From Glandiceps talaboti (lineage: Eukaryota > Hemichordata > Enteropneusta > Spengelidae), in assembly GCF_964340395.1 (NCBI RefSeq), contig NC_135549.1, positions 25,483,842-25,547,841 of the forward strand: a stretch of 64,000 bases of DNA, in the 5' to 3' direction. The position numbers were made by a program, and so were the translations under genes. Below the pieces are notes generated by a model. That model did no database searches. It was not told where the DNA came from and saw nothing but the letters and a program-made list of their open reading frames with translations. Positions within the stretch are counted from its first letter, which is position 1. Each line of letters starts with the position of its first letter. Positions 50,876-62,879 of the stretch are shown here, piece after piece.

Positions 50876-53800
50876 GGCAGATATCAAGTATGTTTGTTGA
50901 TATGACTCTGTGTTATTAACTTTTCTTATCATAACTCCAGCACCTAGTATTGACCACAGTAGTGTCTTTATAGGACATTTCAGGGACTCTCTCTGGTCAT
51001 TTTGTAAGCTCATGTACCTAAATATATGGGGGTGGGGTGGAGTGGAGGGTAGGTCATCAAATTGGTGAGCTTAATGGCAAATTGTTTGTTTTTTGCGACA
51101 TTTTCCTAGTATATTTTAAAAATGCATTAATGACAATGAAAAATATTATTATTAAATTCTAATTTACTCAATGACTAGCAGATTTTTCTGACATGACTTA
51201 ATAAATAATGTTTAACACTAGATATATTTGATGTGTTGAACTTTTATTGGAAGACTAGACATGTTCATCAATGTGCTTAGTCTCAAGTTCTTTTCATTTC
51301 ACTAGTTTTAACATGACTATCAAAACTAAATCACCATACACGTGTACATACAAAGTTCTGATGTGTGAGGCTGCAAACAATATAAAAGTCAAACTGTTTG
51401 TGAATGGACTGAATAGAAAGTTAAATCTTGATCATTTGTACAAACTGTGTAAGGGTGTTACCGTGTATCTCAGCCTGTTCTGCTAAGATGACAGAAACCT
51501 GTTATTGTTTGGCATGTCCACATAATTACTACCAGTACCAAAAAAAAAAAAAACGGGCTGAATCACAGATGTTTAGGGTGAAAAGTGGGGTATGATATCT
51601 TGGGGGAAAGCACACACTCCATTTCAACCGAAGGGTGGGCAGGAAGGGAGAAAATTGTAACACAACAGGCAGAAATAAAAAAAAAACTGAGCAAAATAGT
51701 GCAAACTTACTGCTAACTTGTTAGTTATATAGCAAAACAAACAGTGACCATAGAGGGCGTCCTTGCAAGTTCAAATTAAAATTAATATTTTTTCCACAAA
51801 GAGAATTATACAAATTTAGTTGTGAACTTTCATTCAATGGGGGGGGGGGGGGGGTTATAAACTTGCATCCTGAGCTTGTATAACCATCTGAGACTGCCCC
51901 ATTCTATAACTTTTCCTCTGTACAAATATTGTTTTGTACATGTTTCACTATCTCTGTCACTCTTCTTTCAACAGATATACAGCCCCAGTCTGGTTATTAC
52001 AAACTGGGTGATTGTGTGTATCTCAGATCTGATGAAGACAAACCATACTTGGCTAGGATTGATAGGATGTGGAAAGATTCAAAGTAAGTACAATTATAAT
52101 GTCAGTATGAAATGATAGACTATGTGTAAACATGAATATTTCTGTTCGTCTGTGTTTCACAGGGGAAAGACAACCATAAAAAATATGAAAAATGTACTCT
52201 TGTGGTTTTTAATATGTCTTCTTCATGTGCATGTCGATGCACTCTGACACAATTTAAGACAGATTTTGTCTTGTGTTATCATCACACAAACCCACCTTTG
52301 AATAAGTGTACTATAATGGTGTAGGTAAAACAATATAGGTGATTTGGAATTGTTTTGTTTCTCATTAAATACTCCTAACATTCCATCAATATCAAATAAC
52401 CAAGATAACAGAGCAAGTACACTCAACCATGACTCAACAGACTGTTATCAGTGCTATGTACCACATGGTACTGTTTTGCTCACTCTGCTTAGACTCATTA
52501 ATGAAATTATTTTACCTGGAATTTCAGCCTCGGAATTTTGAACATGTCAAGTCGAGTCTGAAACAATTCACAGTATTACCTAGTATAGTTGCTATCCATG
52601 TATTGAATCTCAAGATCTCTCTTTACGTCTAGCTCAGTGAGGCTCTGAAATGAAATTTCAAATTCAACCAAAGCCACCCACATGGTCATGCCTTTGTTAA
52701 TAGTCATCATAGATTTCTACCCACTGATCAGTTAGAGTTTATTGGTGCCAGTTACATGTACATAATGTTCAAAATTTTGTCAGCTCAGGATCCTACTTCT
52801 ACATTGTTTACAGCATTCTAACTTTTAGGGTCATTTACTTGTCATTGAACAACTTTGGTTCATGACTTTCCATTGAGCTAGACAGTGATAAGAGATGATT
52901 TGATACCCTGTGTAGCATCTCAACTAACACAAACCCACCTTCAAATGTGATGAATGAACAACAGAACTTGAGAAAACAGGTGTTGAACAGAGCTATAAGA
53001 ATGATCCTATGTAATCCTTATAACTCCATTGATATGAAAACACTAATGTGATAATCTGGGAGTGAATCATGTGTGCCAGGTTGCACACGTATAAATGTGT
53101 ATTTTGCTAACTTTGTCAAATAAATTATTGCCAATCCTTACAATGTACCTACTGAAAGCTATTGCTAACCTACATGTAGCAACTGAATTTTACCTGTAAC
53201 ACTAACAGTTCTAATCAAATCAGCTGATGATTTAATCTGAATTTGAATTGTTTTGATTCCTTTTATCTTCTATGTAAGTCATGCAGATCAAGACAATGTA
53301 GAACCAATTTGTGGAAATTTCCGTACAATAAATTTGAAATTCTAGAATGCAGTAATATCAAAACCCATGCAAATTTTGACAACTTATTTTAATTGCTGAA
53401 TTGTAGAATGTTGTGTTTAGTTTGGTAAAGTTTTCAAACGCTGTTCTAATATTAAACTCAATTCTATTTTCTACAGTGGTGATCCATGGTTTCATGGTCC
53501 GTGGTATGTCCATCCATCAGAAACTGAACACCCCCCTACCCGTATGTTTTATAAAAATGAAGTGTTCCTCAGTTCCATTGAAGACACCAACCCAATGCGA
53601 AGTATCAGTGGCAAATGTGCTGTGTTGGCATTTAAAGATTATCTCTCATGTAAGTAGACACAATGAAATAGGGGTTAGGTATGATGTGGGCGGCTGACCC
53701 TCTCTGGTCAAGGATTACCAGTCAGCGACATGTAAGTGGAACGAGTTGAAAAAGTCACATAAATGAGACATGATAAATAGAAATGTTTACTGAAGCTGTG

Positions 53801-54892
53801 TTGGTATCTTCATACATTGTCCTCAATATTTGTACACAAGTAGACTTTGGGACAAGTAGACAAGTAAACTTTGACATACATAACTTAAAGACTGATGCCA
53901 CAATGTCTGTCTGTACCTGTCGTTGATTAATTCTCTTCATGTGCAAAACAGGGTTTTACATCACTTTTGGATTATGGGGGTTTTTGTGACCCAAGGTCTA
54001 AAATCTAAAAATTTTGGGGTCCCAACTGCATATTTGGGGGTCATTCACAAAATCAAGAAATTGATGTCTGATTAAGGAGGTGATAGGACAGTGAACATAT
54101 CAAAATAAGCATGAACGAATTCAAAGTGAATTGAATTTTAATATTAATTGAATTGAATTGGTAAAGGAAAAAAACCAAATACATATTACTTTTAAGTCCA
54201 GTCTTTATTCAGTCATGATTAGAAATAACAATTCTGTTATGTCCAACACTATCATGTACAAATGTAGTTTGTAGTTTACATTCTACCAGCAGCTCCTGGA
54301 GCAAACTTTTTGGCTGTGATCCAGGAAATACAAGTCATCTACATTGTATGACAGGGTCAACCAGTATAATAAATTAACCTGCTGTTCAGTCTTAGGTGAT
54401 TCAGTCTATATCTGGCCCGTTTGCTCCGCATCCTCAAGATATTGGGCATTGATAGCAATTTTCTGTTGTATTGCCTTATGCCACGAGTTTCATCAAGTAT
54501 TAGTCCCAACACAGTCAACTCCATGTATCTGGTCAATAAGAGATTTTGAAAGTACCTTTTCAATACATTCCTCGAACTCCATGATGAGCTTAGGTCATTT
54601 GTAATAGTCAATGTCTAAACCATTCAAATTTTGAACATGCATGAAATCGGTAAATACAACTTACAAGGGAGATTCGCAAGGGTGATCCCGTTTAGCTATA
54701 ACAAATTAGTATGGAGAGTAATGTAATTTAGCTGTGTACAATGTATGATTTTAGATTGGCTACGAGGTGGCCAACTTCATGGACAACAGTTGAACACTGT
54801 TAATGTGACTTGACTAGAGTCTTGATTGCCGTGTAAGAGTTGAGGTTGGGAAGTTTAATTTGTAAATCTGCACACGTCAGTGACAGATTTTT

Positions 54893-62400: not shown

Positions 62401-62879
62401 AGATTGATACGTCATTGTAAAGAAGTCCATCTCAGAGTTGCAGCTAAAAATATCTATCCAAACCAGAGAAGCAGGTAAGTTTTCTTGTCTTGGATTTCTA
62501 AGATACATTCATATACAGGTACCTGTACTTACCAAATACTAATATCAGATGCTAATCAACAGAAATAAAAAAACAAGCGACCTATCGGTCAGAATAGCTC
62601 CGCTGGTTTTTTTTTAATTTAATTTTTTATTTTGGTGACATGTAGAAGTGGTTCAGGTCTTCAGCTCTTCACTATGCAGTTTTGTTTTAGCGATGCAATA
62701 AAGTGGTTAGTGGTTTCATATGATGTCTCACTATAAAACACATTTTACACAAAAGTTGGTAATGTATTGTACTTTTATACCATAGTCACCATTTTATGAC
62801 AAAAATCTACTGTTATGAAAAATTGCACAAAATCTCAGAAAAAAATGACTGGGAAATGCACACAAGAAAAAGAAAAAAC

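Follow-up and report, generated by a model that had tools for sequence, protein, structure and literature searches.

The DNA analysed here is a stretch of 64,000 nucleotides from Glandiceps talaboti (GCF_964340395.1, NC_135549.1, positions 25,483,842-25,547,841 of the forward strand), called the window in the following; coordinates are counted from its first nucleotide, and negative values lie to its left. On the minus strand the window carries PBRM1. In the PDB, the BAH2c exon of this gene matches chains of human polybromo-1 with an E-value of 2.5e-26, an HMG_box domain match is present at 4345-4494, and the bromodomain and HMG-box exons share the strand of the BAH2c exon. The last exon, which also matches human polybromo-1 PDB chains (E-value 1.7e-16), is located left of the window and the stop codon is found at about -954, so that, as a correction to an earlier note, the gene passes the left window edge. 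We take the start to be at about 31.0 kb, where an open frame was compared by eye with the human N-terminus. Head to head with PBRM1, GNL3 is encoded on the plus strand, with GN3L_Grn1 at 33462-33611, a GTPase piece (MMR_HSR1) at 37664-37846, and a probable end by 42888 as judged by eye from an open frame. The GNL3 region also contains a tandem repeat of eight units of 44 bp (35113-35460). Beyond GNL3, a weak Mutator-like transposase piece with a score below the curated cut-off (44627-45208) and a THAP exon (46976-47578) follow on the minus strand and are probably the remnant of one mobile element. Comparison of the window with Rfam gave no family at the gathering score.

One repeat family is present at 6637-7478, at 27582-28431, and at 56339-57013 together with 54889-55059, and its copies in all three places contain an internal tandem repeat of 151 bp in 3.6 units; the first and last of these places belong to the A and B arms described below. 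A dispersed repeat is found in opposite orientations at 49054-49407 and 62680-64000 (reaching 64873 outside the window), and in its right copy an insertion whose ends are inverted occupies about 63070-63613. In the small element-like stretch at 49384-50494, tandem repeats of the AATGTATTA type are found on both sides along with inverted pieces (49719-49766 and 50311-50358). By eye, the open reading frames also include a frame of 604 residues with macro-domain/RRM-type likeness left of PBRM1 (stretch L018:4530-6341), a frame resembling a retroelement polyprotein (L009:4136-9511), and frames that look like parts of the DNA polymerase from a large mobile element (L012:6935-9767).

Self-BLAST of the window revealed collinear inverted matches between 2719-12974 (the A arm) and 50873-62577 (the B arm), which bears out the inverted partial duplication of PBRM1 proposed in the earlier note. 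Chance is excluded by the E-values of 0 for two of the best matches, 7311-9376 to 52966-55059 (96.6% over 2099 columns) and 6069-7317 to 56339-57590 (97.8% over 1253 columns). The region 61640-62233 of B also matches A with 97.8% over 595 columns. The other introns match to about 80-92% with insertions and deletions, and the near-identical stretches described earlier beside indel-rich ones are thus confirmed. B is oriented opposite to A and has kept the introns, as is characteristic of an inverted segmental duplication. It consists of two runs, B1 and B2 (Table 1), and the spacer between them (57591-59170) has no listed match of at least 120 bp in the 184 kb that were compared. The left border at 50876 could not be upheld because homology resumes on the other side of the (CT)106 repeat, where 50521-50656 corresponds to 19931-19796 of A. 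The location of this repeat at the site of the missing sequence suggests a repeat-mediated deletion. In total, the exons BAH2a, BAH2b, and BAH2c for the second BAH domain and the zinc-finger exons ZF1 and ZF3 are present in B while HMG and ZF2 are missing, and the pattern of exons 22-24, 26, and 28 noted before fits the gene model if BAH2a is exon 22. B1 and B2 overlap, and the BAH2b exon is therefore found twice in B.

Table 1. Features of the two arms at the PBRM1 locus, in window coordinates.
Feature	Position	Strand	Remarks
A arm	2719-12974	-	Inner portion of the 3' region of live PBRM1, from which the duplicate derives; comprises BAH2, HMG, and C2H2 exons with their introns
Outlying PBRM1 intron stretch	19699-19931	-	Matches B 50521-50753 with 77% over 235 columns, 90% over the best 137
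Run B1	50521-57590	+	Matches A in descending order from 19931 to 6069; contains deletions
Pure (CT)106 microsatellite	50663-50875		Replaces about 6.8 kb of A (12975-19795) missing from B1
BAH2a exon copy	51987-52083	+	5' part lost, with gaps opposite 21 of the 53 codons in the A exon
BAH2b exon copy in B1	53477-53649	+	Identical to A over 173 bp
Longest exact inverted match, A side	7748-8107	-	360 bp; best candidate crossover site
Longest exact inverted match, B side	54262-54621	+	360 bp
Repeat insertion inside B1	55060-56338		1.28 kb
Run B2	59171-62577	+	Corresponds to A 9063 down to 2719; HMG and ZF2 exons missing
Second BAH2b exon copy, in B2	59339-59465	+	47-bp deletion over splice acceptor and exon start
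BAH2c exon copy	60729-61027	+	In-frame TAA at 60989-60991; codons compared: 99
ZF1 exon copy	61765-62017	+	Lies in the low-divergence tract at 61721-62142, where 2 of 422 columns differ
ZF3 exon copy	62395-62474	+	From alignment and codon comparison

Several of the B exons are 98-100% identical to those of A. Over 340 codons, in which BAH2b is counted twice and from which 36 gapped codons are excluded, only four synonymous and seven nonsynonymous changes were found, one of the latter being a stop. Protein constraint on the copy therefore does not account for the likeness. The E>Q change in the BAH2a copy adjoins the edge of the deletion and may be an effect of the alignment. With the in-frame TAA and with truncated and missing exons, B carries the disabling lesions of a pseudogene; in its present form it is unable to encode a complete PBRM1 C-terminus and is a wreck rather than a second gene. 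A 7-bp insertion behind the BAH2c exon of B was considered as a frameshift and dropped, because the likely splice donor precedes the insertion.

Another 60 kb were fetched on each side of the window, in 12 stretches, and the resulting 184 kb are contiguous and do not contain a single N. The PBRM1-derived cluster continues in this sequence up to 78,523. The region 72324-73292 matches A at -1433 to -3626 in inverted orientation with 77-81%, and a third inverted run, C (73721-78523), corresponds to A from 8915 to -1178 with 63-84% depending on the piece. The C copy of BAH2b has decayed by stops and frame changes. Across the 75 codons compared, the last exon of C has an open frame and differs from A by nine nonsynonymous and three synonymous codons, which is near neutral (dN 0.071, dS 0.088); only one of the differences falls inside the low-divergence tract described below. 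The inverted copy thus stands, but an 11-kb duplication as described in the earlier note is an oversimplification: the three runs overlap, differ in divergence, show low-divergence patches, repeats, and losses within them, and reach 14.5 kb past the window.

When pieces of B1, B2, and C were used as queries against the 590-Mb assembly, no further close copy was found among the best candidates scored, which were the best 40 of 2599, the best 40 of 2572, and 18 of 18. Among these candidates exon matches were confined to the present cluster, and all others were repeats in introns or flanks; the query from the left end of B1 gave three short matches of 53-112 bp elsewhere in the assembly. The search with 2599 candidates did not list the 67%-identical BAH2b copy of C at a distance of only 20 kb, and old copies elsewhere may thus be missed.

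The runs fall into different strata of divergence from A. In the core of B1 (52966-57590) the introns are diverged by 1.8-1.9% on average (3137 aligned columns), in the two B1 pieces left of the core by 8-10%, and in B2 by 4-17%. For introns and UTRs, the average reaches 21-35% in C, compared with 10-18% in the region 72.3-73.3 kb. Divergence of the C copy amounts to 19% in the BAH2b exon and 35% in its intron, which is about what would be expected from drift of the copy only. The exon copies of B are far closer to A than most of the surrounding sequence. Patches with 0-2% divergence are embedded in diverged surroundings; they mostly comprise exons but extend into introns and the 3' UTR. The divergence of the background is inflated by the alignment of indel-rich introns.

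The best low-divergence tract in each of nine pairwise alignments was evaluated by shuffling the columns 2000 times. For six of the nine, none of the shuffles reached the observed score. In the last exon of A and C (A -815 to -998, 78146-78329) a single difference is found in 184 columns inside the tract compared to 118 in 378 outside. The ZF1 tract has 2 differing columns of 422 inside and 39 of 525 outside, the BAH2c tract 8 of 397 and 347 of 1079, respectively, and the tract in the B1 intron (A 8612-7375) 15 of 1242 and 105 of 1469. BAH2b of A and B2 is identical over 114 columns (61 differences in 481 outside), and B1 and B2 share 306 identical base pairs (44 differences in 288 outside). 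The score was reached in 10 of 2000 shuffles for A 106-1185 against C and in 19 of 2000 for a second piece of B1 and B2. The test was negative for 6069-7317 (1049 of 2000), which is diverged by about 2% throughout, and here a young duplication would fit as well as conversion. Shuffling treats the columns as exchangeable, and the constraint on the exons of A adds to the contrast, for which the introns and UTR in the tracts are only a partial cure. The ZF1 and BAH2c tracts cross the splice sites into the introns, one tract is wholly intronic, and one includes 3' UTR. Low divergence thus extends beyond what coding constraint would cover, as expected for gene conversion.

Three copies can be compared in the BAH2b region (A 8407-9063), while sites outside it had to be dropped because B2 is not homologous there. 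The 49 informative sites give conflicting groupings: A and B1 agree at 35, B1 and B2 at 12, A and B2 at one, and at one site all three differ. These groupings occur in runs, which is also characteristic of conversion. Eleven of the 12 sites common to B1 and B2 are consecutive (A 8697-8613) and bordered by sites at which A agrees with B1; none of 100000 shuffles produced such a run. The patch 8613-8697 belongs to an intron of the live gene on the minus strand. Here A is the odd one out, since C agrees with B1 and B2 at seven of the 11 sites and with A at two. Such a patch would not be predicted by simple conversion from the gene to the relics.

Taken together, the locus most probably represents an old, rearranged inverted segmental duplication subject to gene conversion, probably mostly from the gene to the relics, to which we assign a probability of roughly 0.75. 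The 3' segment of PBRM1 would have been duplicated long ago and placed in reverse orientation at the far side of GNL3. The copy would then have been rearranged locally by repetition, deletion of parts, and insertion of repeats to give the three overlapping pseudogene runs now clustered at 50.5-78.5 kb. Patches that look nearly new against the older background would since have been overwritten by conversion among the inverted copies, chiefly from the live gene to the relics but also from relic to relic. Protein constraint on the copies does not keep introns and UTRs alike, and a single duplication does not generate three strata with patches; inverted duplication, local rearrangement, and conversion together explain nearly all of the observations. 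The direction is suggested by the lesions of the relics that are absent from the gene.

It is possible, although somewhat unlikely, that PBRM1 was instead duplicated two or more times into the same place, with C and B2 as old copies, the B1 core as a recent one, and little or no conversion. Both the mean intron divergence of 1.8-1.9% at 52966-57590 and the negative tract test at 6069-7317 would agree with this history, and the B1 core could as well be a large conversion as a younger duplication. However, small low-divergence tracts are also found within the old runs (last exon, BAH2c, ZF1), the 306 identical base pairs are common to B1 and B2, and the patch at 8613-8697 joins B1 with B2 against A. 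False duplication through haplotype divergence is a known problem in genome assembly, and B could stem from a highly heterozygous animal whose second PBRM1 haplotype, whole or in pieces, had been joined in reverse to the primary contig. The mixture of near-identical stretches with indel-rich introns does resemble divergent haplotypes. In addition, homology to the sequence past A resumes in an allele-like manner at 72324-73292, beyond the repeats at 62.6-72.3 kb, which would fit a haplotype and a larger duplication alike. An allele should hardly contain a stop codon, truncated and missing exons, and a repeated exon, and it is difficult to see how it could comprise three strata, the oldest with 21-35% diverged introns and a decayed BAH2b. 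Given also the absence of N in the 184 kb and of any further close copy among the best candidates scored in the assembly, we regard such an artefact as improbable.

Even less credible is a present or former working truncated paralogue of PBRM1, whose own product would keep its exons under selection. Exon identities of 98-100% in B and the open last exon of C could be read in this way, but within the tracts the introns beside the exons are alike as well, nonsynonymous changes between B and A are not depleted (seven compared to four synonymous ones in 340 codons, including the stop), and substitutions in the last exon of C are near neutral. RNA- or cDNA-templated copying was rejected because introns are present and the tracts cross splice sites. 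A transposon carrying a captured PBRM1 fragment was considered because of the inverted flanks of B (49054-49407 and 62853-63836), and rejected because these belong to a dispersed family. All of the best 40 of 1667 candidates scored for the flank repeat match it (this locus included), and a further copy is found at 103323-105355. By eye, no target-site duplication was seen in the printed ends. Concerning transcription, read-through from GNL3 would yield B in the sense of PBRM1, not in antisense.

Under the preferred reading of an old duplication with conversion, the relics might even serve as an exon bank, in which exon-anchored conversion would keep near-perfect exon islands in diverged introns and leave the old inverted cluster able to recombine with PBRM1. 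We consider this extension quite doubtful. If true, PBRM1, a gene of chromatin remodelling, would occasionally acquire converted alleles or inverted ones that truncate it.

The earlier note had also proposed that pairing of the arms could invert 38 kb. A crossover between the arms leading to an inversion is indeed conceivable mechanistically, but because the most similar part of the arms lies in their interior, it would flip about 44-52 kb, with PBRM1 truncated within the BAH2c exon. After the longest exact inverted match (Table 1), the next are 215, 195, and 182 bp in length, followed by shorter ones; a crossover at the longest would invert about 46 kb. The 5' part of PBRM1 would then meet a stop-bearing copy: the BAH2c copy with its TAA would be placed behind the 5' exons, and the HMG, zinc-finger, and C-terminal parts would be lost. 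Because PBRM1 would be joined to the TAA copy, selection should act against the flipped orientation, and inverted alleles should be rare.

A close parallel, as far as it is described in PMC3398144, is the human PMS2/PMS2CL pair at 7p22, whose anatomy and consequences are much like those observed and predicted here. There, the 3' part of the gene has been duplicated in inverted orientation, the pseudogene has lost one exon by deletion, sequence is exchanged with the gene, a crossover has produced a deleterious hybrid allele, and the interval is inverted in some people (PMC3398144). PMS2CL is part of a 100-kb duplicon at a distance of 0.7 Mb and is transcribed (PMC3398144), whereas the PBRM1 cluster comprises about 12 kb of homologous sequence in the window, or 28 kb when the sequence beyond it is included, is 38 kb away, and consists of three runs differing in divergence. 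Homologous recombination between human IDS and its adjoining pseudogene IDS2 at Xq28 is described to invert the DNA between them and to break the gene (PMC6982257). Here, too, a related pseudogene adjoins the gene; however, the IDS inversion has been observed in patients while that of PBRM1 is a prediction from the sequence. HYDIN2 is reported as an incomplete duplication of HYDIN that contains internal exons but not the old promoter and terminal exons, and conversion with the parent gene as donor is described for two control individuals (PMC5345166). According to the same report HYDIN2 is located on a different chromosome and is expressed from a new promoter, in contrast to the lesion-bearing PBRM1 copies.

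In a non-exhaustive literature search we found no work joining polybromo, GNL3, and synteny, or polybromo and "inverted duplication". The PBRM1 cluster is ordinary in kind, joining the known gene-pseudogene pairs with exchange, and instructive in detail. For annotators and read mappers it is a warning that in this genome several exons of PBRM1 occur more than once. The locus also allows testing whether conversion remains anchored at exons after the introns have diverged. It provides a natural invertebrate example of a pattern that is mainly known from human disease loci, namely an inverted partial copy near its gene that has become a mosaic by exchange, and between which and the gene crossovers are predicted to truncate the gene.
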